Origin: Acidobacteriota bacterium
GTDB taxonomy: Bacteria > Acidobacteriota > Vicinamibacteria > Vicinamibacterales > CAVVIG01
DNA: 64,000 nucleotides
Assembly (NCBI GenBank): GCA_003222395.1
Contig: QHWB01000040.1
Location: 446,488 to 510,487 of the forward strand
Reading direction: 5' to 3'
Shown here: positions 12,349 to 25,542 of the stretch, piece after piece
Layout: every line of letters begins with the position of its first letter
How positions within the stretch are numbered: position 1 is the first letter of the stretch
The notes under the pieces: model-generated
What the model was told of the DNA's origin: nothing
The model's input: only the letters and a program-made list of their open reading frames with translations
Databases searched by the model: none
Program-made: the position numbers and the translations under genes

Positions 12349-12783
12349 TCACCTGACGCGCTTCAGCGATCGCAGCGCCGACGCGGCCGCGCGATTCAGG
12401 CGCGTGTCGAAGCTCGAAAATTCCACGTCATCCGGCCAGGTCGTCGACGTGAGTTCCACAAACGATGCGAGATGGATCGCATCGAGGGACTTCAGGTGGT
12501 GGCGTTCGGCGAGCTCGCCTGCGCTCCTGCACAACGCCGCTGACACGTCGATGGACACATACCCCGGCCAATCGGCATCGAAATCACGCTTGACCATCGC
12601 GTAATCGCGACCCGAGAGTCCCTTTTCCCGAAAGCGCCTCGCGAACGCTGCCCGCGCTTCGGCGTACGTCAACCCCGACGTCGCGGCCGACCGTGCTGTG
12701 GCAAGCAATTGCCGGACGTCATGGCTGCCCGGTTCCGAGACGTACAGTTTTACGAGACTGCTCGCGTCGAGGTAGACCGTCAC
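12349..12783 (-). CDS. vapC: VapC-type PIN-domain toxin
   Basis: 144-residue PIN-domain ribonuclease; family members cleave tRNA or other RNA when freed from the antitoxin. The first catalytic acid is Asp6 in MTVYLDASSLVKLY; further acids are Glu in YAEARAAF, Asp in KSLDAIHLASF, and Asp in SSFDTRLNRAA. It starts with GTG, and that codon overlaps the antitoxin stop (GTGA), a classic coupling that keeps toxin output tied to antitoxin translation. Confidence 0.92.
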   Translation of the reverse strand: MTVYLDASSLVKLYVSEPGSHDVRQLLATARSAATSGLTYAEARAAFARRFREKGLSGRDYAMVKRDFDADWPGYVSIDVSAALCRSAGELAERHHLKSLDAIHLASFVELTSTTWPDDVEFSSFDTRLNRAAASALRSLKRVR

Positions 12784-13058
12784 ACGCGATCTTCACGGTC
12801 TTCGAGGACGGCATCCGAGACGCTGGGTCCCTTGATCCGCGGCGGCCGCTTCGACCCGGTCGGCTTACCGCCGCCCCAGTGCGCTTTCCCTTCCCTGATC
12901 AAGCGCAGCAGCCCTTCGGGGATGTTCGCCTCTTCAGCCGGCACAATCGTGGCGATAGGTTTGCCACGCTCGGTGACGACCAGCCGGTGACCGGCACGCA
13001 CACGCTTCAGGTGACGACTGAGCTGGTTCTTGAGCTCGCGAATGCCGACGGTGTGCAT
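12780..13058 (-). CDS. Phd/YefM-type antitoxin
   Basis: 92 residues from the ATG at 13058. A longer frame reaches 13091, but that would begin upstream of the TAGAAT promoter box at 13082-13087, so the later start is chosen; it matches the family opening HTVGIRELKNQLSRHLKRVRAG. The N-terminal half is the Phd DNA-binding domain (VVTERGKPIATIVP), and the charged C-terminal half (PPRIKGPSVSDAVLEDREDR) should wrap the toxin. Antitoxins of this type repress their own operon, and two matching palindromes lie just upstream. Confidence 0.92.
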   Translation of the reverse strand: MHTVGIRELKNQLSRHLKRVRAGHRLVVTERGKPIATIVPAEEANIPEGLLRLIREGKAHWGGGKPTGSKRPPRIKGPSVSDAVLEDREDRV

Positions 13059-13071
13059 CGAGGCAGAATCC

Positions 13072-13103
13072 TGTAGCCACAATTCTAACACGATGTAGCT
13101 ACA
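13072..13103 (-). promoter_or_regulatory. Toxin-antitoxin promoter with two operator palindromes
   Basis: TGTAGCCACA (13072-13081) and the perfect palindrome TGTAGCTACA (13094-13103) are centred 22 bases apart, two helical turns. A minus-strand -10 box TAGAAT (13082-13087) lies exactly between them. This is what is expected for cooperative autorepression by antitoxin dimers on one face of the DNA. A clear -35 box is not seen. Confidence 0.65.
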
Positions 13104-13117
13104 GCGACGCGTCTACG

Positions 13118-14962
13118 TCAGCACGACACGCACTTGTGGTTGTTCTTCGCGCCGAGCGATTCGAGGAGCGCAAGCGCTTCGGGCCAGGGCTGGATGCGCT
13201 GCACCGGACCGTTCGCCATGTCGGCCGTCGTCTTCCCTTCGCGGTTGACCGCCGTCACGTCGGCGCCTTTCGAGACGAGATATCTGATCATCTCGACGTC
13301 GCCGCGCGCCGCTGCGTTGTGCAGCGCCGTGTTGCCTTCGTGATCCTTCGCGTTCGGATCGGCGTGCAGCTCTTCGATGAGGTACTTCACCGCCGCGAGC
13401 ATGCCGGTCGGCGCGAAGCGATGCGAGTTGGCGGCGAAGCCTTCGCCGTAGCCCGACCCCGCAGCCGCCACGACCGCCGGAATGCCGGGTCCGCCGAGCG
13501 GCACCGGCGGCAGCGGCGAGACGTCCTTCACTTCGCGATTCTCGTCGGCGATTCTCGGCCGGCCGGCGCTCTTCATCGTCGGGATGTTCGAGTCGGCATG
13601 GTACGCGACGAGCAGGCGCATCGCGTCGACGTCGCTCGCATAGGCGGCTCGCCAGAACGGCGTCGCGCCGATCTCGTCGACGCCGGACAGGTCGAAGCTG
13701 TAGCCCTGATACCAGACTTTTTTCTTCAGCCGGACGTTCGGATCCGCGCCCGCGTCGAGCAGCGCCTTCATCAGCTCGAGGTACGTCACCTTCTGGTTCA
13801 CGTACGCGCGCGGCTGCGGATACAGCGCCTTCGGCGCCCACTCGCAGTTGAGCGCGGCGTACAGCGGCGTCACGCCATTCTCGGCCGCCAGCCGCGGATC
13901 GGCATGTCGATCGAGCAGCTCCTTCGCCAGATCGAAATGGCCGTTCAGCGTCGCGATCAGGATCGGGCTGGTTGAATCGCCGGCGCTCACCTCATTGATG
14001 CCGGCGCCCGCGTCGAGCAGCGTTCGCACGGTTTCGGTGTACCCCTGACGGGCGGCGAGCAGCAGCGGCGTCATCCCACCTTGCGCGTAGACGAGCTCGT
14101 TCAGCTGATACTGACGATCGATTCCCGCCGTACCGGCAAACGGATTGCGCCCTTCACGCCCGCCGCCGCCCGGCCCCCCACTCGCCTGCCCTGAGCCTGT
14201 CGAAGGGGCCTGCCCTGCTGTCGCCCTTCGACCTTCCTCTGGGCGACCCTGAGGTTCTCGACGACTTTCGCCAGGCTTCGGCGGCTCGCCGCCCTTCGTG
14301 GCTTCGGCAGGCCTGGACGGCGCCTGCGGATTGCCGAACAGCACGCCGGCAAAGACCGCCGAATTCCGTCCCATCGCGTTCAAGTCGACCGTCTTCGTCG
14401 TCGCCTTCAGATCGGCGCCGTGCTTCGCCAGCAGCGCGACGATCGGCGTGCGATCGGACGCCGCGGCAAACATCACCGCCGTGAGACCGCGGACCGGTTC
14501 AGCCACGTTGATGTCTGCGCCGCGATCGATCAGCACGTTTACGGCGTCGGCGTTGCCGGCGGCCGCGGCGAACATCAACGCAGTAGTGCCGTTCGACGTC
14601 CTGCCGTTGACGTCGGCCCCCGCCTTGATGAGCGGCTCCATCACGGCGGCGTTGCCGTTCTTCGCCGCGAGCAGGAGCGGCGTATACGAGTTGATGCGGG
14701 TCGACGCCGTCACGCTCGCGCCGGCGTACAGCAGCGTTTCGGCGAGATAGGCGTCGTTGCGCATCGCGGCCCAGTGCAGCGCCGTCATCCCGTCGGCCTG
14801 CGACGCGTTGACGTCGGCCGCCTGCTTCAACAGCGATCGCACGGCATCCCTGTCGCCCGCCTGCGCTGCATCTGCGACCGGTGACGGCGGCGCGGCGCCG
14901 AGGAGCACCGATAAGCCGAGCGACATCAGCGCGACGCTCACGCGAATCAGCTTCTGTCGCAT
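13118..14962 (-). CDS. Exported ankyrin-repeat protein, cassette copy A
   Basis: 614 residues with a signal peptide (about 1-23, SVALMSLGLSVLLGAAPPSP). Ankyrin repeats run from about 30 to 200, again from about 290 to 450, and from about 540 to 590 (for example DGMTALHWAAMRNDAYLAETLLYAGA and EGNTALHNAAARGDVEMIRYLVSKGADV). A low-complexity Gly/Pro/Arg linker near 215-275 separates the first two blocks; part of it is written by a dispersed repeat at 14189-14208. The protein ends GAKNNHKCVSC, leaving a C-x2-C pair as the last residues, as in copy B. Third gene of the minus-strand cassette, 98 bases after the DUF1552 gene. Likely a periplasmic or surface interaction protein; function unknown. Confidence 0.9.
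   Translation of the reverse strand: MRQKLIRVSVALMSLGLSVLLGAAPPSPVADAAQAGDRDAVRSLLKQAADVNASQADGMTALHWAAMRNDAYLAETLLYAGASVTASTRINSYTPLLLAAKNGNAAVMEPLIKAGADVNGRTSNGTTALMFAAAAGNADAVNVLIDRGADINVAEPVRGLTAVMFAAASDRTPIVALLAKHGADLKATTKTVDLNAMGRNSAVFAGVLFGNPQAPSRPAEATKGGEPPKPGESRREPQGRPEEGRRATAGQAPSTGSGQASGGPGGGGREGRNPFAGTAGIDRQYQLNELVYAQGGMTPLLLAARQGYTETVRTLLDAGAGINEVSAGDSTSPILIATLNGHFDLAKELLDRHADPRLAAENGVTPLYAALNCEWAPKALYPQPRAYVNQKVTYLELMKALLDAGADPNVRLKKKVWYQGYSFDLSGVDEIGATPFWRAAYASDVDAMRLLVAYHADSNIPTMKSAGRPRIADENREVKDVSPLPPVPLGGPGIPAVVAAAGSGYGEGFAANSHRFAPTGMLAAVKYLIEELHADPNAKDHEGNTALHNAAARGDVEMIRYLVSKGADVTAVNREGKTTADMANGPVQRIQPWPEALALLESLGAKNNHKCVSC
14189..14208. repeat. CCCTGAGCCTGTCGAAGGGG dispersed repeat in ankyrin A
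   Basis: A short interrupted palindrome that encodes the PSTGSGQA segment of the ankyrin linker. A second member (CCCTGAGCTTGTCGAAGGG) lies in the DUF1592 gene of copy B at 24358-24376. The same motif is common in many environmental bacterial genomes. Confidence 0.8.
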
Positions 14963-15002
14963 CTTCTGTCTGCTCCTGTGACTCTCTCGCTCTGCCTATG
15001 TG

Positions 15003-15051
15003 GCGGGCCTTTCAGGCCCGCGAAGCGCGCGCGGCCCTGAAAGGGCCGCGC
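15003..15051. repeat. Two REP-like palindromes between cassette A genes
   Basis: GCGGGCCTTTCAGGCCCGC (15003-15021) and a GCGCGGCCCTGAAAGGGCC-type palindrome (15029-15051) in the 98 bases between the DUF1552 and ankyrin genes. They could also act as mRNA hairpins that separate the expression of the two genes. Confidence 0.7.
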
Positions 15052-15060
15052 CCCATCAGC

Positions 15061-16446
15061 CTAAATCTGGTTCAAATCGAACTCGCCCGTGCTGTCGCCG
15101 AACTGCTGCATGTCGTCGACGCCGAGCTTGTGCATCACGCTCAGCATCAAGTTGGCCATCGGCGTGCCGTCGGGAGCGCGCAGGTGCAGGCCGCCCTTCA
15201 GCCGGCCGCCCGCGTGCCCCGCGATGAAAATCGGACATCGCTTGTGGTTGTGTAGGTTCGAATCGCCCATCGGCGATCCGTAGATGATCACCGAGTTGTC
15301 GAGCAGGGTGCTGCCGTCCGCATCGGGCGTGCTCTTCAGCTTCTCCAGCAGGTACGGGATCATGCTGACGTGATACGTGTTGATCCTCTGGAAATCGACG
15401 ATCCGATCTTCACGCTCGCCGTGATGCGACGCGGAATGGAACGCGCCTTTGAAGCCGCTCTCCGGATACACGCGGTTCGAGGCGTCGCGCCCCAGCTTCA
15501 ACGCGAACACGCGCGTGACGTCCGAGGCGAACGCGAGCGCCTGCAGATCGAACATCAGCTTCACGTGCTCTGAAAACGAATCGGGCACGCCGACCGGCGC
15601 CTCGGGCAGCTCGCGCGGCTCGCCGCTCGAGTTCTTCGCCTCGACGCGCTGGATGCGCCGCTCGATCTCCCGGACTTCTTCGAGGTACTGCGACAAGCGC
15701 GCGCGATCAGCCGCGCCGAGATCCTTCTTGAGCCGCGCGGTCGCTGTGCCCAGCCAGTCGAGGATGCTGCGATCCTCGGAGCGCCGTTCCGCGCGCTCCT
15801 GCGGCGTCGCGCCGACGCCGAACAGCTGATCGAAGACGACGCGCGGATCGCGGACCATCGGCAGCGGCTCGATTGGTGAGGCCCAGCTGATCGAATCGGT
15901 GTACGTGCACGAGTAGCCGTACGAGCAGCCGCCCGCCTGATCGACGTTCTCAATGCAGAGCTGCATCGACGGAATCGGCGTCTCCTGGCCGAACTGCCTC
16001 GCGTAGATCTGATCCAGCGACGTGCCGGCGCGTACGTCCGATCCCTGCGTCTGCTTCGGATGCGTCTGGGTGAGGAACACGGCGCTCGACCGGAAGTGGT
16101 CGCCGCCGATCTCCGGCGCCGTGAACGCCTCCGCGTTCCGCACGTCGGTGTTGCTGACGATGGTGACGTAATCGCGGTACGGCTGCAGCGACACGAGGCT
16201 CGTCGAGCTCAAGTCGAAATCGCGACCGACGGCCGACGGCGCCCACAGGTTCTTCTTGATGCCGAGCGCCGTACTGCCGGCCGAACCGTGCACCATCTCG
16301 ATCGCCACGAGCCGAAGCTTCTTCCCGGGCGTCGCGCCGAACACGCTCCGCGCCGGAACCATCGCTTCCAGAAACGGGAGCGCCATCGTCACGCCGACGC
16401 CCTTCAGCACCGTGCGGCGCGACAACTGCTTGTTCGTGATGTACAT
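15061..16446 (-). CDS. DUF1552 (HXXSHH) exported protein, cassette copy A
   Basis: 461 residues. The leader is twin-arginine-like (SRRTVLKGVGVTMALPFLEAM). The family motif HXXSHH is present as HSASHH at 337-342. Other conserved blocks are EMVHGSAGSTALGIKKNLW, AEAFTAPEIGGDHFRSSAVF, a cysteine-rich CIENVDQAGGCSYGYSC, and YGSPMGDSNLHNHKR near the C-terminus. The fold is thought to be related to alkaline-phosphatase/sulfatase-like DUF1501 proteins, but no reaction is known. In Planctomycetota, Verrucomicrobiota and Acidobacteriota it is regularly encoded beside DUF1592-type cytochrome proteins, as here. Confidence 0.93.
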   Translation of the reverse strand: MYITNKQLSRRTVLKGVGVTMALPFLEAMVPARSVFGATPGKKLRLVAIEMVHGSAGSTALGIKKNLWAPSAVGRDFDLSSTSLVSLQPYRDYVTIVSNTDVRNAEAFTAPEIGGDHFRSSAVFLTQTHPKQTQGSDVRAGTSLDQIYARQFGQETPIPSMQLCIENVDQAGGCSYGYSCTYTDSISWASPIEPLPMVRDPRVVFDQLFGVGATPQERAERRSEDRSILDWLGTATARLKKDLGAADRARLSQYLEEVREIERRIQRVEAKNSSGEPRELPEAPVGVPDSFSEHVKLMFDLQALAFASDVTRVFALKLGRDASNRVYPESGFKGAFHSASHHGEREDRIVDFQRINTYHVSMIPYLLEKLKSTPDADGSTLLDNSVIIYGSPMGDSNLHNHKRCPIFIAGHAGGRLKGGLHLRAPDGTPMANLMLSVMHKLGVDDMQQFGDSTGEFDLNQI

Positions 16447-16463
16447 CGTCGCCCTCTCCAGAC

Positions 16464-16566
16464 GCGGGGCTGAAAGCCCCGCGCCACATCTTCTCGCACC
16501 CTGTCGCGCGGCCCTGTCCGGCGGCGCGGCCCCTGTCGTGTGGCCCAGCCCCTGTCAGGGGCGCGA
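16464..16566. repeat. REP-like palindrome and CCTGTC-containing tandem units
   Basis: GCGGGGCTGAAAGCCCCGC (16464-16482) is followed by four imperfect units carrying GCCCCTGTC (about 16497-16566) in the 121-base gap between the DUF1592 and DUF1552 genes of copy A. The corresponding gap in copy B is only nine bases, so this material arrived after the duplication or was lost from B. Confidence 0.65.
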
Positions 16567-16567
16567 T

Positions 16568-19078
16568 CTAAAAACGCCGCTCTGCATCGTCCGCCTTCAG
16601 CTCACGACTCTCGGGCTTCACCATTCGGAACGCTGCGCTGTTCACGACGCCGAGAATGTACGAGGACGCACGATTGCCGCTCTTCGCCGCGTCGCGAATA
16701 ATCACGCGAACCGTCGGCATGTCCGAGGGCTCGATGCGACGGCCGACCGCGTACGTCAGCAGGTTTTCGGTGAAGCTGCGCAGCACCATGTCCCGATGCT
16801 TCAGCAGCGCGTCGCGCAGCCCCGACGGCCCGTTCATCTTCGTCCCGTCGTACAGATCGCCGACGACGTCGACGGGGACCTCGTTGTCCTTGATGCGCCA
16901 GGCGCCGGTCACGTCGAAGTTGTCGAGCGCGAGCCCGAGCGGATCGATCACACGATGACAGCTGTTGCAGGACGGATTCTTCCGATGCTCTTCCATCCGC
17001 TGCCGCGTCGTCAGGCGCATGCCGTCATGCTCGGTCTTGGTCGTATCGTCGAGGGCCGGCACGTTCGGCGGCGGCGGCGGCGGCGGCGTGCCGAGCAGCA
17101 CTTCCATCACCCACTTGCCGCGCAGCACCGGCGACGTGCGATCCGCGACCGACGTCAGCGTCAGGATGCTTCCCTGTCCCAGGAGTCCGCGGCGGTATTC
17201 CGGCAGCTGCACGCGCCGGTACGACGCGCCGATGATGTTTGGAATGCCGTAATGTTTCGCGAGCCGCTCGTTGACGAAGCCGTAATCGGCGGTGAGCAGA
17301 TCGAGCACGTTCCGATCTTCGCGCACGATGCTGTCGAAGAAGAGCTCCGTTTCGCGCTGCATCGCCTCGGCCAGGCGATCGTCGTACTGCGGGTAGAGCA
17401 GCACGTCGGGATGAATCTTGTCGAGATCCTGCAGCCGCAGCCATTGGCTCGCGAAGCGCTTCGACAGCGCATCCGATCGCGGATCCGCGAGCATCCGCTT
17501 CACCTGCTTCTCGACGCCGAGTGGTGAGCGGAGCGAACCGTTGTTCGCGGCCTTGACGAGCTCGGCATCCGGCACCGACGCCCAGAGGAAGAACGACAGA
17601 CGCGAGGCAAGATCCTGATCGCTGATCCGCAACATCTGCGACGCCGCGCGCGCGACGGTCGGGCGCGCGCCGACAGTCGACGGATGCTCCAGACGAAACA
17701 GGAATCGCGGGCTGACCAGCACCGACTGAAGCGCGAGGCGGACGCCGTTTTCGAAATCGCCGCCTTTGCGTCCCTTCTGGTAGAACTCCAGCGCGTCCTG
17801 GATGTCGTCCGCGGTCGCGCCGCCCCGGTACGCCTGGTTCGTCAGGCGTTTCACGATCCCGGCCGCGCACGTCTCCTCGTCGTTTCCGTTCGACGGACGG
17901 CAGCTGAAGATCTTGCGGCGGCTGACGGTCTCGGACACGCCGGTGACGTGCGATGGCCCGAGGATCGTCATGTCGCGCATGTGAGGCAGCGCCGTGACCC
18001 CGAACTGCACGTCGACGTCGGCGAGCGTGTTCTCGAGCGGCGCGACGAGATCGTCGACCGGTCCTTCGAGCTTCTGGATGAAGGCCGCCGTGACGCGCTG
18101 CGGTCCGGCCTTGATGTGAATCGGATCCGTCTTGAGCTCGAGACCGTTCTGCCCCGTCTGCTGATCGGTCTCGCTCATGTTCGGCTTCACGTCGAGCAGC
18201 GCCACGCGCTCGCCGTTGATCGACACCTCGAGCTGCTCGCCGATGTTCATCGTCAGCATCGAGTAGCGGCCGAAGATGCCGCCGAGCGGCTCGTAGTGCA
18301 TCGACGCCTTGATCACGTAATCGCCGTCGGCCGGAAAGATGTGGACGACCGAGATGCCGCCGCGCGTACCGATGGGCGCGCCGTCGACCTGGCGCATCTG
18401 CGATCCGAACCGTCCGATCTTGTAGGTGGCCGACGTCGCGCTCGCGTTGCGATCGCCGACGGCGAGCCGGCTGATCTGGCTCGCCGCGCGCAGGTACCCT
18501 TCGAGCAGCGCCGGCGAAAACGTCTGCTCGTCGGCTACGTTGTCGAAGCCGCTGCTGACGGTGTCGGGCGGGAGATACGCGGTGACGTCGACGTCGATGC
18601 CAAGAAGATCGCGAACAGCACGCTGATATTCCGCGCGGTTCAACCGCTGAAACGGACGCCAGCCGGGATTCGGCTTGAGCGCCGCCGCGGCGTCGATCGT
18701 GTTCTCGAGCGTCTCGTAGAACGACTGAATCGTCGCCGCGTCGGGACGCCGGGCCTGCGGCGGCGGCATCATCCCGGCCCGCAGCTTGCGGATCATCTTC
18801 TCGGCGACGTTCGCGTTCTCGACGACTTTGGCCGCGTCGAACGCGGCGAGCGACAGTCCGCCGGCCCGTGTCTTGTCGCTGTGGCACGTCGCGCAGTACT
18901 GACCGACCAGCTGATTCTGCGATTCGATCGACAGTCCGGCCGACGCATGCGCGGTCGCCAACTTCGGCGACGTTGGCGTCGCCGTCCGGGGGCGTCCGGT
19001 CGGCGCGGTGGTCTGGCCCGCAGCCATACCGAGCGCCACGATGGACGTGGCGAGGCTCGCTATGACGAAGGTCTTCAT
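16568..19078 (-). CDS. DUF1592-type multidomain cytochrome (PSD/PSCyt) protein, copy A
   Basis: 836 residues, exported (signal 1-21). An N-terminal heme c motif CATCH is at 62-66, followed by the usual chain DUF1587 (RAEYQRAVRDLLGIDVD), a carbohydrate-binding-like beta region, DUF1595, DUF1592 (RLSFFLWASVPDAELVKAA), DUF1588 with a second CxxCH (NPSCNSCHRVIDPLGLALDN) and DUF1585 at the C-terminus. A GTPPPPPPPNVPAL stretch precedes the second heme site. It is the first gene of cassette A. Family members are exported multiheme proteins of unknown function, thought to be involved in oxidative breakdown or electron transfer outside the cell membrane. Confidence 0.93.
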   Translation of the reverse strand: MKTFVIASLATSIVALGMAAGQTTAPTGRPRTATPTSPKLATAHASAGLSIESQNQLVGQYCATCHSDKTRAGGLSLAAFDAAKVVENANVAEKMIRKLRAGMMPPPQARRPDAATIQSFYETLENTIDAAAALKPNPGWRPFQRLNRAEYQRAVRDLLGIDVDVTAYLPPDTVSSGFDNVADEQTFSPALLEGYLRAASQISRLAVGDRNASATSATYKIGRFGSQMRQVDGAPIGTRGGISVVHIFPADGDYVIKASMHYEPLGGIFGRYSMLTMNIGEQLEVSINGERVALLDVKPNMSETDQQTGQNGLELKTDPIHIKAGPQRVTAAFIQKLEGPVDDLVAPLENTLADVDVQFGVTALPHMRDMTILGPSHVTGVSETVSRRKIFSCRPSNGNDEETCAAGIVKRLTNQAYRGGATADDIQDALEFYQKGRKGGDFENGVRLALQSVLVSPRFLFRLEHPSTVGARPTVARAASQMLRISDQDLASRLSFFLWASVPDAELVKAANNGSLRSPLGVEKQVKRMLADPRSDALSKRFASQWLRLQDLDKIHPDVLLYPQYDDRLAEAMQRETELFFDSIVREDRNVLDLLTADYGFVNERLAKHYGIPNIIGASYRRVQLPEYRRGLLGQGSILTLTSVADRTSPVLRGKWVMEVLLGTPPPPPPPNVPALDDTTKTEHDGMRLTTRQRMEEHRKNPSCNSCHRVIDPLGLALDNFDVTGAWRIKDNEVPVDVVGDLYDGTKMNGPSGLRDALLKHRDMVLRSFTENLLTYAVGRRIEPSDMPTVRVIIRDAAKSGNRASSYILGVVNSAAFRMVKPESRELKADDAERRF

Positions 19079-19088
19079 TATCGGCCTA

Positions 19089-19129
19089 AGTATACGGAGA
19101 CTCTGGCCTTAAGCGTACAATTTGTCGTC
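19089..19129 (-). promoter_or_regulatory. Candidate promoter of cassette A
   Basis: A minus-strand -10 box TATACT (19089-19094) and an upstream GACGACAAA (19121-19129) precede the DUF1592 start at 19078. Both elements recur in front of copy B (25578-25583 and 25621-25629) although the rest of the upstream DNA has diverged and their spacing differs by 11 bases. The predicted leader is only a few bases, so translation may be leaderless. Confidence 0.4.
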
Positions 19130-19164
19130 TGAAAACGTCACCGAATGTCTCCTGGAGGACCCGC

Positions 19165-19413
19165 GTGCCACTGTTCGATTTTCGATGTCGACGCTGCGAT
19201 CACGCGTTCGAAGCGCTCGTGCGTAAGGGCGATGTTCCGCACTGTCCGTCCTGTAATGGAACAGATCTGGAGCGACAACTGCCTACCGTCGCGGTCAGCA
19301 CCGATGAGCGTCGACGGGAGTCGGTGAAACGAGAGCGAAAACGTCAGATTGCCGGCCGCAAGGACGCGCTGATCGCGGAGGAGGAGTACCGGCAGAAGCA
19401 CGATAAGGAATGA
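19165..19413 (+). CDS. FmdB-family zinc-ribbon regulatory protein
   Basis: 82 residues from GTG at 19165, with GGAGG about nine bases upstream. The N-terminal zinc ribbon has CRRC (8-11) and CPSC (28-31) in the family pattern MPLFDFRCRRCDHAFEALV. The rest is a charged, probably helical tail. FmdB-like proteins are putative transcription regulators of uncertain target. It sits alone on the plus strand between the two minus-strand cassettes, starting back to back with the cassette A promoter. Confidence 0.9.
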   Translation: MPLFDFRCRRCDHAFEALVRKGDVPHCPSCNGTDLERQLPTVAVSTDERRRESVKRERKRQIAGRKDALIAEEEYRQKHDKE

Positions 19414-19465
19414 TGACCGACGATCGAAATCGCGTGGTAGCGCGGCTTCAGACGTAATCAGGGAG

Positions 19466-19561
19466 TCGTGACAGCCTTGAGCCGTTGCGAGGCGCGCACG
19501 CGCCGAGCAACAGCGGCGGGGCCCCGCCGCAGTGAATAAGGGTGGGGCCGCACGCGAGTGA
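19466..19561. repeat. Dispersed GTGACAGCC...GGGGCC repeat, partial copy
   Basis: Part of the long dispersed family described at 53872-54044: GTGACAGCCTTGAGCCGTTG, then GCGAGGCG...CGCCGAGCAACAGCGG and a terminal GGTGGGGCC-CACGCGAG. Found between fmdB and ankyrin B. Confidence 0.8.
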
Positions 19562-19605
19562 GAAGGTGAGAGGATTCGAGGACTCGAGATCCCCAAATCC
19601 TCAAA

Positions 19606-21444
19606 TCAGCATGACACGCACTTGTGATTGTTCTTCGCGCCCAGGGTCTCGAGCAGAGCCAGCGCTTCCGGCCACGGGTTGATGCGCTGCACCGGACCGT
19701 TGGCCATGTCGGCCGTCGTCTTGCCTTCGCGGTTGACGACTTTGACGTCGACGCCCTTCGACACGAGGTACTTGATCATCTCCACGTCGCCGCGCGCGGC
19801 CGCGTCGTGAATCGCGTTGTTGCCTTCGTGGTCGCGGACGTTCGGATCGAGATGGAGCTCCTCGATCATGTACTTCACGGCGGCGAGCATGCCGCTCGGC
19901 GCATAGCGATGATGGTTGGCGGCGAGGCCTTCACCGTAGCCCGCACCGGCCGCGGCCAGCAGCGCGGGCACGCCCGGCCCGCCGACCGGCACCGGCGGCA
20001 CGCCCGAGACGTCTTCGGCCTCGCGGACCGCGTCGCCCGTCCGCACGCGTCCCGGCGTGCGGATCGTGGGGATCGCCGGATCGGCGCCCCATTTCACGAG
20101 CAGCTTCATCGCATCGATGTCCGACGAGTACGCGGCGCGCCAGAACGGCGTGGCGCCGGTCTCGTCGACGCCTGACTGATCGAAGTCGTACTGCGAGTAC
20201 CAGACCTTCTTCGTCAACCGCGCGTTCGGGTTCGCGCCCTTCTGCAGCAGCGCCTCCATGAACTGCAAGTACGACGTCTTCTGCTGCTCGTAGGCGCGCG
20301 GCTGCGGATACAACGCCTTGGCAGCCCACTGGACGTTCAGCGTCGCATACAGCGGCGTGACGCCGTTGTCCTGCGCGAGGTTCGGGTCGGCGCCGCGATC
20401 GAGCAGCTGCTTTGCGAGGTCGAACTGACCGTTGATCGTCGCGATGAGCATCGGCGTGACGTGATCGCCGGAGGTCGGCTGATTGAGGTCGGCGCCCGCG
20501 TCCACGAGCGCCTTCACCGCATCCACGTGTCCCTGCCGCGCGGCAAGATGCAGCGGCGAGAGACCGCCCCAGTACCCGACGAGCTCGGTGTAGTTGTATT
20601 GCCGCTCGAGGCCCGGCACCTGCTTGGTCGGATCGACACCGCGCCCGCGCCCGCCGCGGCCTCGCTGAGCCTCAGTTGTCTGGCCTGTCGCCGCGACTGG
20701 CTTCGCGTCCTTGCCTTCTACGGCGGCCTTCGACGCGTCAGCGGCCGGTTTCGTGTCCTTCGTCTCTTTTGTTTCCGCGGGCTCCCCACGGCCACGCGTT
20801 CCACCGCCCTGCTGCTGCCGCTCGGCGATCAAGCGCTCCTGCTCTTCTTTCGCGAACGCCGACAGATCCTGGACTCTGGTCCGCAGGTTGACGTCCGCTC
20901 CGCGCGCGGCCAGCTCACGAATGACGTCGGCGCGGCCGAACGCGGCCGCGAATGCGATTGGCGTCTCGCCCTTCACCGACTCCTTCGCGTTGATGTTCGC
21001 ATTCTTCGCCAGCAGCGCCTTGACGGCGTCGACGTGACCTGCCGCCGACGCGAGCATCAGTGCGGTCGTGCCGTTGGTCGTCGCGCTGTTCGCATCGGCG
21101 CCGGAGGCGAGCAGCGTCTCGATCATCGGCGCGTCGCCGTCGCGGCTCGCAATGAGCAGCGGCGTGTATCCGCCGATGCGCGTCGTCGCCTTCACGTTCG
21201 CGCCGGCGTAGAGCAGGATCTTCGCCATCTCGACGTCGTGCTTCGACGCGGCGTAGTGCAGCGCCGTCATGCCGTCGCCGAGCGCCGTGTTGACGTCCGC
21301 GCCGTCCTTGAGCAGCGCGCGCACGGCGTCCTTGTTGCCTTGCATCACGGCGTCCGCAACCGATCCGGTCGGCGGCGCCGCGTGCATCAAGGCGGAGAGG
21401 AACAGCGCGCCGATGGCGCCCGAAGTGATCAACGTTCTTCGCAT
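19606..21444 (-). CDS. Exported ankyrin-repeat protein, cassette copy B
   Basis: 612 residues from the ATG at 21444 (an earlier in-frame start at 21465 adds only MLVEDYR before the signal peptide). Same plan as copy A: signal peptide, ankyrin block, low-complexity Gly/Arg/Lys linker near 210-275, second ankyrin block, conserved PPVPVGGPGVPALLAAAGAG stretch, final ankyrin pair and the identical ending GAKNNHKCVSC. The linker differs completely from copy A while the ankyrin blocks and C-terminus are closely similar, showing selection on the repeats and on the terminal cysteine pair. Third gene of cassette B. Confidence 0.9.
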   Translation of the reverse strand: MRRTLITSGAIGALFLSALMHAAPPTGSVADAVMQGNKDAVRALLKDGADVNTALGDGMTALHYAASKHDVEMAKILLYAGANVKATTRIGGYTPLLIASRDGDAPMIETLLASGADANSATTNGTTALMLASAAGHVDAVKALLAKNANINAKESVKGETPIAFAAAFGRADVIRELAARGADVNLRTRVQDLSAFAKEEQERLIAERQQQGGGTRGRGEPAETKETKDTKPAADASKAAVEGKDAKPVAATGQTTEAQRGRGGRGRGVDPTKQVPGLERQYNYTELVGYWGGLSPLHLAARQGHVDAVKALVDAGADLNQPTSGDHVTPMLIATINGQFDLAKQLLDRGADPNLAQDNGVTPLYATLNVQWAAKALYPQPRAYEQQKTSYLQFMEALLQKGANPNARLTKKVWYSQYDFDQSGVDETGATPFWRAAYSSDIDAMKLLVKWGADPAIPTIRTPGRVRTGDAVREAEDVSGVPPVPVGGPGVPALLAAAGAGYGEGLAANHHRYAPSGMLAAVKYMIEELHLDPNVRDHEGNNAIHDAAARGDVEMIKYLVSKGVDVKVVNREGKTTADMANGPVQRINPWPEALALLETLGAKNNHKCVSC

Positions 21445-21469
21445 CCGGTAATCCTCAACTAGCAAGTCT

Positions 21470-21537
21470 GTAGCGCAGCCCTTTAGGGCTGCTTCGCCGC
21501 GCCGCCGGGGGACGGCAGGCCTAAAGGCCTGCGCTAC
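21470..21537. repeat. Inverted pair of REP-like elements (outward GTAGCG ends)
   Basis: GTAGCGCAGCCCTTTAGGGC (start of the element at 21470-21492) and its inverted partner ending AAAGGCCTGCGCTAC (21515-21537), with 22 bases between. Same family as 9011-9106 but with the GCTAC ends pointing outward. It lies between the DUF1552 and ankyrin genes of copy B. Confidence 0.85.
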
Positions 21538-21555
21538 ACGTGCCGCTCGTCGTCG

Positions 21556-22971
21556 CTACACACCCTCGCTGGTCGCCGTCGCCGGCGACGGATTGTTCAA
21601 GTCGAGCTCGCCCGTGCTGTCGCCGAACTGCTGCAGGTCGGTACGTCCCAGCATGTGCAGCATCGTCAGCATCGGATTGGCCATCGGGGTGCCGTCCGGC
21701 GCCTTGATGTGGACGCCGCCTTTCAGCCGACCGCCGGCGTGACCGGCAACGAACAGCGGCACGCGCTTGTGGTTGTGGATGTTCGAATCGCCCATCGGCG
21801 AGCCGTAGACGATCAGCGAGTTGTCGAGCAGGTTGCCGTCGCCCTCCGGTGTGTTCTTCAGCTTCTCGAGCAGATACGGCACCATGCTCACGTGGTACCG
21901 ATTGATCTTCGCGAAGTCCATGATGCGGTCTTCACGCTCGCCGTGGTGCGACGCGTTGTGGAAACCGGTCGCCACGCCGCTCTCTGGATAGGCGCGGCCC
22001 GACGCGTCGCGTCCGAGCTTGAAGGAGAAGGCGCGCGTGGTGTCGGCGGCGAACGCCAACGCGATCAGATCCATCAGAATGCGCGCGTGCTCCTCGAATG
22101 AATCAGGAACGCCGATCGGCGCTTCCGGCATCGCGCGCTGCTCGCCGCTGGCGTTGCGCGCCTCGACGCGCTGGATGCGGCGCTCGATCTCGCGCACGTT
22201 CTCGACGTACTCGTCGAGCCGGCGCCGGTCGCTCGCGCCCAGCTGCCGCTTCAACTGCGACACCTGACCGTTGATCCAGTCGAGGATGCTGCGGTCCGCC
22301 TTCAGGCTTGCGGCGCGCTCCTCGGGCGTCGCGCCGACGCCGAACAGCTGATCGAACACGACGCGCGGATCGCGGATCATCGGGAGCGGCTGCGTCGGCG
22401 ACGCCCAGCTGATCGTGTCGGTGTAGATGCAGGAATAGCCGTACGTGCAGCCGCCCGCCTGATCGACGTTCTCGATCGAGAGCTGCATCGACGGAATCGG
22501 CGTGTCCTGGCCGAACTGCTTCGCGTACAGCTGATCGAGCGACGTGCCGGCGTGCACGTCGTTGCCCTCGGTCTGCTTCGGATGCGACTGCGTGAGGAAC
22601 ACGGCGCTCGAGCGGAAGTGATCGCCGCCGATTTCCGGCAGCGTGAACGCCTCCGCGTTGTGCACGTCGGTGTTGCTGATGATCGTCACGTCGTCGCGGA
22701 ACGGCGCGAGCGGCTCGAGGGTCGGCGTGAATTCGAAGTCGCGGCCGGCCTTCACGGGCGCGAACAGATTCTTCTTGACGCCCAGCGCCGTGCTGCCGGC
22801 CGACCCGTGCACCATTTCCATGCACACGAGCCGAATCTTCGACGACCCCGCGGCGGTTCTGGCCCACGCCGTGCCCGCCGGCAGCATCGCATCGAGGAAC
22901 GGCAACGCCACCGTCACACCCATCCCTTTCAGGACGGTGCGCCGGGAGACGTGCTTCTTCGTGATGTACAT
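21556..22971 (-). CDS. DUF1552 (HXXSHH) exported protein, cassette copy B
   Basis: 471 residues, close paralogue of the copy A protein over its whole length. Twin-arginine-like leader SRRTVLKGMGVTVALPFLDAM; HXXSHH motif as HNASHH at 338-343; the cysteine-bearing NVDQAGGCTYGYSC is kept, although the first cysteine of copy A (LCIEN) is serine here (LSIEN). It ends with an extra NPSPATATSEGV tail. Its start is nine bases after the stop of the DUF1592 gene, so the two are certainly on one transcript. Confidence 0.93.
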   Translation of the reverse strand: MYITKKHVSRRTVLKGMGVTVALPFLDAMLPAGTAWARTAAGSSKIRLVCMEMVHGSAGSTALGVKKNLFAPVKAGRDFEFTPTLEPLAPFRDDVTIISNTDVHNAEAFTLPEIGGDHFRSSAVFLTQSHPKQTEGNDVHAGTSLDQLYAKQFGQDTPIPSMQLSIENVDQAGGCTYGYSCIYTDTISWASPTQPLPMIRDPRVVFDQLFGVGATPEERAASLKADRSILDWINGQVSQLKRQLGASDRRRLDEYVENVREIERRIQRVEARNASGEQRAMPEAPIGVPDSFEEHARILMDLIALAFAADTTRAFSFKLGRDASGRAYPESGVATGFHNASHHGEREDRIMDFAKINRYHVSMVPYLLEKLKNTPEGDGNLLDNSLIVYGSPMGDSNIHNHKRVPLFVAGHAGGRLKGGVHIKAPDGTPMANPMLTMLHMLGRTDLQQFGDSTGELDLNNPSPATATSEGV

Positions 22972-22980
22972 GTTGGCTCC

Positions 22981-25542
22981 TTACTTAACCGGGGCTGCGC
23001 CCCGGACCCCGGCTCGGTCGCTCGCGGGGGCCCCTTGGCCCCGCTCCGCTTCCTCGCGTTCGGCGGCGGTCGTCGTGATGGCTTCCGCCATGCTCATCTG
23101 GAACGCCGGGCTGTTGACGACGCCCAGCACGAATGACGAGAACTTGTTGCCGCCGACCGCGGCCTTCTTCACGATCGCGCGAATCGTCGGCTGGTCGTAG
23201 TACTCGATGCGGCGGCCGAGCGCGTACGACATCAGATTGTCCGTGAAGTTGCGGATGACCGGCTCCGATCGCGCGAGCAGCGCCTGCCGCAGGTCGTCGG
23301 GACCGCTGATCTTCGTGCCGTCGTAGAGCGTGCCGCTCGTGTCGACGTCCACGCCGTTGTCCTTGATCCGCCACGCCCCGATCGTGTCGAAATTCTCGAG
23401 CGCGAGGCCGATCGGATCGATGACGCGGTGGCACGATGCGCAGGCCGGATTCTTGCGGTGCTCTTCCATGCGTTCGCGCACCGACAGCGTCTTGCCCGTC
23501 GCCGTCGCCGATTTCGTCTCGTCGAACGCCGGTACATTCGGCGGCGGCGGCGGCGGCGGCGATCCGAGCAGCGTTTCCATGATCCACTTGCCGCGCTGCA
23601 CCGGCGACGTGCGATCCGCTACGGCGGTCTGCATCAGGATGCTGCCCTGACCCAGAATGCCGCGCCGTTGGTCGGGCATCGTCACGCGGCGGAACTCGCC
23701 GCCGACGATGTTCGGGATCCCGTAGACCTTGGCGATGCGTTCGTTGATGAACGAGTAGTTCGCCGTCAGCAGGTCGAGCACGTTCCGATCTTCCCGGACG
23801 ATGCTGTTGAAGAACAGCTCCGTCTCGCGCTTGTAGGATTCGGCGAGCTCGTTGTCGAACCCCGGAAACAACAGCGCGTCGGGGTGCAGTTTCTCGACGT
23901 CCTGCAGCCGGAGCCACTGCGACGCGAAGCGCGTCGACAGCGCGTCGGCTTTCGAATCGCCGAGCATGCGACGCACCTGCTTCTCCAGCACGGCCGGCTG
24001 GTGCAGCGTGCCGCTGTTGGCGACTTTGACGAGCTCAGCGTCCGGCACCGTGTTCCACAGGAAGAACGACAGCCGCGACGCGAGATCGAGATCGCTCAGC
24101 CGATAGGTCTGCCCCGGCCGCACGTTCGACGGTTCCGATTCGAGCCGGAAGAGGAATTTGGGGCTCGCCAGGATTGCCTGCAGCGCCGTCTTGATGCCCG
24201 ATTCGAAGTCGTGCCCCTTGCGTCCCTCGGCGTAGAACTCCATCAGCGACTCGACGTCCTCGCCGTTGGCCGAACGCCGGTAGGCTTCGCTCGCGAGGTC
24301 CTGGACGATCTTGCGTGCGCAGGGAATTTCGTCGCCGCTAGATGTCGCTCGCGGCGACCCTGAGCTTGTCGAAGGGTCGGTCGGCGACAGCGGACGGCAC
24401 GTGAAAATGCGCCGGCGGCTCGGCGTCTCCGATACGCCAGTCACTTTCAGCGGACCGGTGATGCTGAAGTCGCGCACGTGCGGCAGCACGTAGATGCCGG
24501 CGTTGTCGCCATACTCGGTGTCGGCCAGCGTGTAGTCGATCGGCGCCATGAGATCGTCGACGACGCCGTCGAACTTCTGGATGAATGCGGCCGCGATGCG
24601 CTGAGGACCGGCCTTCACGAAGATGCGCGGCGTCACCAGGTTGAGACCGGTCTTGTCGGTCTCGCTCATGCGCCAGTTGATGTCGAGGAGCGCCGCGCGC
24701 TCGCCGTTGATGGAGACTTCGAGCTGCTCGTTGCGGCTCGCCACGCTGCCGAACAGCTGACCGGTCGGCGTCCCATGCAGCATGATGCGGAACGTGTACT
24801 CGCCGTCGGCGGGGAACGTGTGCGTGATCGCGAGGCCGCCGCGCGTACCCCACGGCGTGCCGTCGATGTGTTTCATCTGCGACTGCGTGCGCGGCACTTT
24901 GTAGGTCGACTCGCTCGGGCTCGCGTTCTTGTCGCCGATGGCGAGGCTCGAGATCTTCGCGGCGGCGCGCAGATATCCTTCCATCAGCGCCGGCGAGAAG
25001 CTCTGAACGTCCGCGATGTTGTCGTACCCGCCGCTCATCGTGTCCGGCGGCAGGAACGCATTCACATCGACGTCGATGTTGAGGAGATCGTGGACCGACC
25101 GCTGATATTCGGCGCGGTTCAGCCGCTGGAACGTGCGATGGCCGGGATTCGGGTGCGCCGCGGCAACCTGATCGATCTTCGTTTCGAGCGATGCCGCGAA
25201 GGCGTTGATGACGTCCGCGTCGGGACGCCGCGCTCCGGGAGGCGGCATCATGCCGAGCCGGAGCTTGCGGATCATCTTCTCGGCGGTGTCCGCGTTCTGT
25301 TCCGGATGCGCAGGATCGAAGCTCGCGAGCGTGAGACCGCCCGTCTTGGCTTTATCGTTGTGGCAGCCAACGCAGTACTGCGTGACGAGCGACGGCTGCG
25401 CGTCGGTCGTCGTCGGCGCGTGCGAAGCAACGGGCGCTGGTTTCGGTTGGGCTGTCGTTCTTGGCAGAGCCGTCTGAGCGCCTCCATTGGCGCTCAGGCC
25501 CACGACGACGAGACCCACGGTCGCGACGAACAATCCCCTCAT
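22981..25542 (-). CDS. DUF1592-type multidomain cytochrome protein, copy B
   Basis: 853 residues from the ATG at 25542, which follows a GGGGGTGGG purine run; a TTG start 15 bases earlier is less likely. Heme motif CVGCH at 57-61 and a second CxxCH in NPACASCHRVIDPIGLALEN; domain order as in copy A. Two segments look recently acquired: DPSTSSGSPRATSSGDE, written by the dispersed repeat at 24358-24376, and the last 20 or so residues (RGQGAPASDRAGVRGAAPVK), written by a GGGGCTGCGCCCC-type repeat at 22985-23044. The first gene of cassette B. Confidence 0.93.
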   Translation of the reverse strand: MRGLFVATVGLVVVGLSANGGAQTALPRTTAQPKPAPVASHAPTTTDAQPSLVTQYCVGCHNDKAKTGGLTLASFDPAHPEQNADTAEKMIRKLRLGMMPPPGARRPDADVINAFAASLETKIDQVAAAHPNPGHRTFQRLNRAEYQRSVHDLLNIDVDVNAFLPPDTMSGGYDNIADVQSFSPALMEGYLRAAAKISSLAIGDKNASPSESTYKVPRTQSQMKHIDGTPWGTRGGLAITHTFPADGEYTFRIMLHGTPTGQLFGSVASRNEQLEVSINGERAALLDINWRMSETDKTGLNLVTPRIFVKAGPQRIAAAFIQKFDGVVDDLMAPIDYTLADTEYGDNAGIYVLPHVRDFSITGPLKVTGVSETPSRRRIFTCRPLSPTDPSTSSGSPRATSSGDEIPCARKIVQDLASEAYRRSANGEDVESLMEFYAEGRKGHDFESGIKTALQAILASPKFLFRLESEPSNVRPGQTYRLSDLDLASRLSFFLWNTVPDAELVKVANSGTLHQPAVLEKQVRRMLGDSKADALSTRFASQWLRLQDVEKLHPDALLFPGFDNELAESYKRETELFFNSIVREDRNVLDLLTANYSFINERIAKVYGIPNIVGGEFRRVTMPDQRRGILGQGSILMQTAVADRTSPVQRGKWIMETLLGSPPPPPPPNVPAFDETKSATATGKTLSVRERMEEHRKNPACASCHRVIDPIGLALENFDTIGAWRIKDNGVDVDTSGTLYDGTKISGPDDLRQALLARSEPVIRNFTDNLMSYALGRRIEYYDQPTIRAIVKKAAVGGNKFSSFVLGVVNSPAFQMSMAEAITTTAAEREEAERGQGAPASDRAGVRGAAPVK
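22985..23044. repeat. GC-rich dispersed repeat forming the DUF1592-B C-terminus
   Basis: Two palindromic halves (CGGGGCTGCGCCCCG and GGGGGCCCCTTGGCCCC) joined by CTCGGTCGCTCGC. It includes almost everything after the last conserved residue of the family up to the stop codon. The paralogue has an unrelated ending. Confidence 0.6.
24358..24376. repeat. CCCTGAGCTTGTCGAAGGG dispersed repeat in DUF1592-B
   Basis: Second copy of the element seen at 14189-14208, again in frame in a loop of a cassette protein. The paralogous DUF1592-A lacks this insert (it reads directly SNGNDEETCAAG at this place). Confidence 0.8.

Follow-up and report, generated by a model that had tools for sequence, protein, structure and literature searches.

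The stretch of DNA considered here, referred to below as the window, comprises 64,000 nucleotides of contig QHWB01000040.1 from an Acidobacteriota bacterium of the order Vicinamibacterales and carries two copies of a three-gene cassette. Each copy encodes a DUF1592-type diheme c cytochrome (PSD), a DUF1552 protein and an ankyrin-repeat protein (ANK), all predicted to be exported. Both trios are transcribed from the minus strand in the order PSD, DUF1552, ANK. The genes and features are:

13118..14962, minus strand: ANK1, ankyrin-repeat protein with predicted export, 614 aa (Pfam Ank_2, 5.4e-60)
13121..13138, minus strand: C-terminal tail HKCVSC of ANK1 (HxCxxC, the last residues of the protein; from the sequence)
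15061..16446, minus strand: DUF1552/HXXSHH 1, 461 aa, predicted Tat-type signal (Pfam PF07586, 8.1e-85)
16568..19078, minus strand: PSD1, DUF1592-type diheme c cytochrome, 836 aa (CxxCH at residues 62 and 704)
19165..19413, plus strand: fmdB-family zinc ribbon gene, 82 aa (TIGR02605, 49.3 bits over a cut-off of 31.3; Zn_ribbon_8)
19606..21444, minus strand: ANK2, ankyrin-repeat protein with predicted export, 612 aa from ATG (Pfam Ank_2, 5.2e-64)
19609..19626, minus strand: C-terminal tail HKCVSC of ANK2 (from the sequence)
21556..22971, minus strand: DUF1552/HXXSHH 2, 471 aa, predicted Tat-type signal (Pfam PF07586, 5e-90)
21943..21960, minus strand: HxxSHH motif of DUF1552 2, residues 338-343 (conserved across 202 sequences)
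22981..25542, minus strand: PSD2, DUF1592-type diheme c cytochrome, 853 aa from ATG (CxxCH at residues 57 and 701)
24439..24927, minus strand: carbohydrate-binding-module (CBM) 6/35/36-like beta-sandwich within PSD2, residues 206-368 (predicted model)

Open reading frames and Pfam matches bear out what an earlier reading of these letters, made without database searches (the sequence-only reading), had described: the same gene order twice on one strand, a plus-strand fmdB gene between the trios and two CxxCH sites in each DUF1592 protein. Both PSDs belong to the DUF1592-type/PSCyt3-PSD family, having the PSD3-PSD5-PSD4-PSCyt3-PSD2 chain of Pfam domains (DUF1587-1595-1592-1588-1585) and a weak PSCyt1 match in addition to their two CxxCH sites each. 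The DUF1552 proteins score 285.5 and 302.6 bits against a Pfam cut-off of 30, and both contain HxxSHH. Neither the two window ANKs nor the two window DUF1552 proteins contain CxxCH. The reading frame of ANK2 opens at TTG 21465 and that of PSD2 at TTG 25557, the better starts being ATG 21444 and ATG 25542, respectively. Export of all six products, also claimed by the sequence-only reading, is likewise predicted here: the N-terminus of DUF1552 carries the twin-arginine motif RRTVLKG, pointing to export of the twin-arginine translocation (Tat) type, and PSD and ANK begin with hydrophobic, signal-like segments, called by eye and with a simple script, without a signal-peptide predictor. The two trios are 73% (DUF1552), 61% (PSD) and 59% (ANK) identical. 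The PSD of trio 1 is 68% identical to that of another Acidobacteriota genome (locus L064), and is thus closer to it than to the PSD of trio 2, which indicates that the two trios are old and not the result of a recent duplication. The fmdB gene is not a cassette member.

The two trios are part of a larger set, and the two versions envisaged by the sequence-only reading are too few. The genome to which the window belongs (7.74 Mb in 118 contigs) has 11 PSD2 places and 12 DUF1552 places, and ten of its 11 PSD genes are accompanied by DUF1552 and an ANK with predicted export, eight of these trios being ordered PSD-DUF1552-ANK and two ANK-PSD-DUF1552. The eleventh PSD (L049) forms a divergent pair with DUF1552, and one DUF1552 gene (L050) is solitary. 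Pairs were called divergent when the PSD scored below 900 bits against a profile built from trio members, a threshold chosen after the scores had been seen and under which truncated PSDs also drop; the remaining pairs are referred to as the trio subfamily. Ten of the 14 Ank_2-bearing genes of this genome are cassette members. A non-cassette ankyrin gene of the same genome (L051, 7190-8665, minus strand) encodes ankyrin repeats fused to a PBP/PEBP (phosphatidylethanolamine-binding-protein) domain.

A scan of named genomes with a DUF1552 alignment, in which the nearest 80 of 573 relatives were kept, gave 79 loci, most of which carry the titles Acidobacteria or Gemmatimonadetes; nearly all 79 show the trio on one strand. 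Among the trio-subfamily pairs of named loci with at least 3.5 kb of sequence on each side, 48 of 52 have ANK; the four exceptions are two tandem arrays with a shared ANK (L057 and L084), L091, where DUF1552 is frame-split and ANK is present, and L120. Since a near-universal trio among nearest relatives is a biased result, genomes of the phylum, of the class and of the Gemmatimonadota were sampled. DUF1552 occurs in 7 of 60 genomes of the Acidobacteriota sample, where, with the window's genome set aside, ANK is present at 4 of 13 DUF1552 places, all four of the trio subfamily. It occurs in 21 of 61 Gemmatimonadota genomes, and the loci read there, one hand-picked and therefore non-random place from each of 20 of these 21 genomes, are full trios in 20 of 20 cases, one with its PSD clipped by a contig end. 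The 149 genomes of the window's class comprise 92 with a trio-type ANK and 101 with DUF1552 (both in 91, ANK only in 1, DUF1552 only in 10, neither in 47), a co-occurrence with a Fisher p of 1e-27, uncorrected for kinship and with the lists compared by eye. In the reverse direction, 14 of 14 ANKs from 14 genomes, hand-picked one per genome among the best-scoring matches listed and not at random, adjoin PSD and DUF1552. The gaps in same-strand cassettes have medians of 22 and 23 bases. Across Acidobacteriota and Gemmatimonadota the three genes recur regularly as a cassette. Four cassette loci (L072, L078, L090 and L105) are titled Acidimicrobiia, Euryarchaeota, Gammaproteobacteria and Kuenenia, and are probably mislabelled or mis-binned.

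A larger set of cassettes is that of a closed 6.1-Mb chromosome titled uncultured Vicinamibacterales (OY282382.1, hereafter G061), with 40 DUF1552 places. The 39 regions read contain 35 trio-subfamily pairs, 31 of them with ANK, and five DUF1552 places of the chromosome are divergent or solitary, none with ANK. Full-length ANKs of the trio type number 36, of which 31 are in trios. Cassette members account for 31 of the 38 Ank_2-bearing genes, a tally based on the scoring of 150 out of 201 first-look candidates, in which weak matches could be lacking. Further genomes of its family (f38) have from about 17 to 50 first-look DUF1552 candidates each.

The paralogues of G061 make it possible to compare the divergence of the three genes within one genome, which removes the species phylogeny as a cause of correlation. 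For the 30 of 31 trios that passed the length limits, pairwise distances gave Spearman coefficients of 0.78 for PSD-DUF1552, 0.78 for PSD-ANK and 0.71 for DUF1552-ANK, with 0 of 2000 shuffles as high in each case, and the partial correlation of PSD with ANK, given DUF1552, is 0.51. Nearest neighbours agree for about half of the copies (15-16 of 30), for PSD-DUF1552 and PSD-ANK alike. The coefficients are 0.54-0.76 in the window's genome (0 to 14 of 2000 shuffles as high) and 0.75-0.81 in Gemmatimonadota, where no shuffle was as high; the PSD set for these comparisons comprised 142 unique PSDs of 145. The case for a functional link between ANK and its partners rests above all on this co-divergence within genomes, and since ANK follows each paralogue, direct contact is favoured over a general role. 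The trio members also stay together through REARRANGEMENT: in G061, ANK lies downstream on the same strand in 19 cases, upstream on the same strand in 5 and upstream in divergent orientation in 7. The PSD tree, with 53 rows, implies 13 switches in the order or strand of ANK, against a mean of 14.1 for shuffled labels, so that the arrangement hardly follows the tree. Concerning a single origin of ANK, a DUF1552 tree with 64 rows requires the presence of ANK to change 11 times, in part owing to contig-end rows (L060, L068) and to tandem arrays; an ANK-less clade of nine groups there with one trio member at 94% support.

Because the three genes form a regular cassette, diverge together and stay together through changes of gene order, they can be read as one self-contained periplasmic redox-enzyme module present in many diverged copies, a reading to which a probability of about 0.5 is assigned. 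A physical complex, different substrates for the different copies and actual redox chemistry are what we infer within this reading.

The anatomy of the three proteins suggests how such a module could be built. The predicted model of DUF1552 2 (predicted local distance difference test, pLDDT, 79.8) has a sulfatase/alkaline-phosphatase fold, matching a carrageenan sulfatase with a Foldseek E value of 8.8e-5 and choline sulfatase 6fny with a VIA-align Z score of 16.7 (root-mean-square deviation 4.1 over 260 residues). By this common core fold DUF1552 is predicted to belong to the sulfatase/alkaline phosphatase superfamily. Nearly invariant in 202 DUF1552 sequences, a set in which the 37 rows marked 'P/N' include trio members with truncated PSDs, are H118, D146, H338, H342, H399 and the twin arginines. 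The zinc ligands of alkaline phosphatase follow the pattern Asp-x3-His...His. The spacing of H338-x3-H342 and the later H399 resembles it, which suggests a retained but altered metal site, and the conserved histidines are read as a candidate metal or active site. The fold could also mean that polysaccharide decorations are the target of DUF1552, which would then be a sulfatase/alkaline-phosphatase-like hydrolase or transferase, with PSD as a sensor or anchor and no redox chemistry on the substrate. The modelled match to sulfatases, with Z up to 16.7, and the CBM-like domain predicted in PSD would suit this, as would the location of PSCyt genes near sulfatases in Verrucomicrobia (PMC5615132; this and the other publications are cited from the parts of them consulted). 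It is nevertheless unlikely, since the formylglycine-sulfatase motif CxPSR is found in 0 of the 202 sequences, its equivalent place being apparently held by the nearly invariant H118 (in a visual alignment anchored on the LT motif that follows, not a superposition), and since two CxxCH sites are kept in nearly all PSDs.

In the predicted model of PSD2 (pLDDT 85.6), residues 206-368 match CBM36, CBM6 and CBM35 chains with VIA-align Z scores of 8-9.3. This CBM-like domain was the only part matched in a fold search with the whole model, and no convincing sequence homologue of solved structure was found for PSD (best E value 0.34) or DUF1552 (0.092). A diheme cytochrome with a carbohydrate-binding part recalls Cbp2D of Cellvibrio japonicus, and PSD might be, like it, an electron donor to lytic polysaccharide monooxygenases (LPMOs). 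DUF1587 and two CxxCH domains are common to both proteins, DUF1587 being annotated in Cbp2D, whose CjX183 domain reduces LPMOs (PMC8981238), and a Cellvibrio CBM2 protein is annotated as DUF1592 (PMC6004670). Such a role is very unlikely here, given that the LPMO family AA10 (PF03067) was matched in 0 of 10 cassette-bearing genomes, with a control genome matched, and that the PSD profile has no sequence match to CjX183 in the PDB up to an E value of 1. For AA10 the role is largely refuted by the 0 of 10 genomes, the search having covered PF03067 only.

In ANK the ankyrin repeats run along the protein. One clade, including both window copies, ends in H-x-C-V-S-C or a similar sequence, and a C..C end is present in 59 of the 72 named-locus ANKs, in 3 of the 10 trio ANKs that the window's genome has and in 3 of the 31 G061 trios. 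At one locus (L151, 711-2978, plus strand) the trio ANK is naturally fused to a C-terminal cytochrome c domain (PF13442, 2.9e-12). ANK1 matches the NCBIfam models of Dot/Icm ankyrin effectors through its repeats only and far under their cut-offs. The cysteine tail raises the alternative that ANK is mainly a cofactor chaperone, delivering or shielding heme or, via HxCxxC, a metal while PSD or DUF1552 matures, and not a lasting subunit. In Pseudomonas aeruginosa and Campylobacter jejuni, catalases depend for their activity on ankyrin proteins, probably via heme (PMC7567364, PMC11442138), and the frequency of the C..C end in named loci and the arrays in which two pairs share one ANK fit a chaperone as well. 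Most trio ANKs of G061 lack the tail, however, as do 7 of the 10 in the genome of the window, and a general chaperone need not duplicate and diverge with each copy of its client. This alternative is regarded as doubtful.

In the proposed periplasmic redox module, PSD, with its two c hemes and its CBM-like domain, would bind a polymeric or glycosylated substrate and carry electrons. DUF1552, probably exported by the Tat route, having the predicted sulfatase-like fold and conserved histidines in place of a CxPSR motif, would be the metal-dependent catalytic partner. ANK may be a subunit specific to the cassette, for assembly or as an adaptor, holding or loading its cognate partners, and the many diverged copies could reflect specialisation for different substrates. 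It is tentatively proposed, as a possible but less secure extension, that Acidobacteriota and Gemmatimonadota possess, in these cassettes, a new multi-copy oxidoreductase system of the periplasm, made up of a histidine-ligated metal enzyme with a sulfatase-like fold (DUF1552), a diheme, CBM-bearing PSD and a cognate ANK with an HxCxxC cofactor tail in one clade, amplified to 30 copies or more for a range of substrates, and that much of what is counted as symbiosis ankyrins in these two phyla consists of its subunits.

Several observations weigh against the module as a fixed threesome or against its proposed chemistry. ANK is present in 0 of 19 divergent PSD-DUF1552 pairs (one from the window's genome, eight from the phylum sample, four from G061 and six from ANK-less genomes), 6 of which lie less than 3.5 kb from a contig or locus end; the six DUF1552 places in ANK-less genomes are PSD-DUF1552 pairs with lower PSD scores, and none (0 of 6) has ANK. 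The pair can thus work without ANK. Within the trio subfamily itself 4 of the 35 pairs of G061 have no ANK. The tandem arrays L057, L084, L214 and L220 have one ANK per two pairs, which fits a shared accessory equally well as a fixed subunit. Well-supported branches of the PSD tree alone force 3-4 order changes per arrangement, fewer than the best tree. The CBM-like match, with Z of 8-9 in a predicted model, is not strong, nor can function be read from a common fold. No recurrent neighbour gene indicates a substrate, and pyrroloquinoline quinone (PQQ) dehydrogenases lie within 10 kb in 7 of 35 cases, where 7.1 are expected by chance. The sequence-only reading had taken ANK for a third fixed member. 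This stands for one PSD-DUF1552 subfamily and fails for the divergent pairs; in G061 ANK is mostly kept, with the four pairs lacking it and 5 of 36 ANKs lying apart as departures. By genome counts ANK genes are found mostly beside their partners rather than usually apart from them, and by distance correlations ANK divergence follows that of PSD and DUF1552, so that neither outcome named in that reading as contrary to it was observed.

Some genes near the cassettes deserve description. A cluster of 20 PQQ-dehydrogenase genes in 17 loci hinted at a fourth member, and one such gene lies beside trio 1 (9625-11751); this candidate was rejected because G061 has about 75 such genes, which lie no nearer to cassettes than chance. 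These roughly 75 genes (PF01011) are an expansion of periplasmic quinoproteins independent of the cassettes. The quinoprotein gene at 9625-11751 (plus strand) is convergent with trio 1; its product is below the TIGR03075 cut-off and also matches the 'acido-empty-quinoprotein group A' model. Directly downstream of ANK1 are genes for a PIN-domain toxin (12349-12783, minus strand) and a Phd-type antitoxin (12780-13091, minus strand). An exported family with the pattern PDLQGIW...TPLERP, with no Pfam match, recurs with 12 members in 11 loci (for example L165, 13979-15070, and L151, 5031-6017, both plus strand). Another exported family, of about 438 aa with one CxxCH ('TYYKDVLPIMQENCQTCHRP') and a weak cytochrome c match, has seven members, six of them near G061 cassettes (for example L158, 1816-3135, minus strand, and L162, 10818-12131, plus strand).

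The abundance of ankyrin genes in sponge- and coral-associated bacteria, including Acidobacteriota and Gemmatimonadota, has been taken as a sign of symbiosis; ankyrin genes make up 0.55% of the genes in the acidobacterial class Luteitaleia (PMC8163846), and a threshold of 0.2% for symbiosis has been used (PMC9868349). As the ankyrins of sponge and coral symbionts are read in this way in both reports, ANK might be a eukaryotic-like effector of host interaction, its PSD-DUF1552 neighbourhood being incidental. Its adjacency to and co-divergence with PSD and DUF1552 in many genomes argue against this, as do the titles of the 74 named ANK loci, of which 11 refer to groundwater, soil depth, an aquifer, sludge or a lake (by a keyword list); such a role has hardly any probability. 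Records titled as coral or apparently sponge make up 6 of the 74, with habitat guessed from isolate names. The trio is found in soil, water and host-associated bacteria in 1 to about 35 copies per genome. Cassette members make up most ankyrin genes of the two genomes counted, which bears on ankyrin as a symbiosis marker, and the presence of the cassette in groundwater, soil and lake genomes changes the reading of ankyrin counts. For DUF1592/DUF1552, a widespread exported pair, the third partner, the predicted fold and the natural versions make function testable.

Parts of the cassette can be compared with known systems. The sulfatase/alkaline phosphatase superfamily has a fold like that predicted for DUF1552, which differs in the missing CxPSR and in its histidine-rich conserved set. 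The PSCyt2-PSD1 (DUF1549-DUF1553) genes pair with DUF1501, a parallel design of c cytochrome domains with an exported alkaline-phosphatase-like partner that uses other Pfam families; no ankyrin gene is known to accompany these pairs. One DUF1501 gene lies near a trio at L118.

Ankyrin proteins are likewise coupled to heme proteins in P. aeruginosa (periplasmic AnkB with KatB), in C. jejuni (cytoplasmic Cj1386 with KatA) and in the ank-katE operon of Leptospira (PMC7567364, PMC11442138). AnkB is periplasmic, as is predicted for ANK, but in these systems the partner is a catalase and there is no DUF1552; in the two window trios the gene beside ANK encodes DUF1552 and the scanned adjoining genes are not catalases. 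Membership of ANK in these systems is not claimed, and as a precedent for the coupling of ankyrin and heme proteins they support the cofactor-chaperone alternative too. Cbp2D, like PSD, is a single exported protein that contains DUF1587, a carbohydrate-binding part and two domains with one CxxCH each (PMC8981238); it has CBM2 and YceI-like domains, and PSD has an inserted domain predicted to be CBM36/6-like instead.

Known counterparts are the pairs of PSCyt3/PSD2-5 and DUF1552 in Planctomycetota and Verrucomicrobiota, in which the same two families stand side by side in many copies. PSCyt3 genes are reported usually to adjoin a family of uncharacterised genes, which we read as DUF1552, and no ankyrin partner is mentioned in the part of that publication consulted (PMC5615132). 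No report of the trio was found in the open-access literature searched (DUF1592, DUF1552, PSCyt/PSD, ankyrin). The PSD-DUF1552 pair was already known, and what appears to be new is that one of its subfamilies has ANK as a third, co-diverging member.

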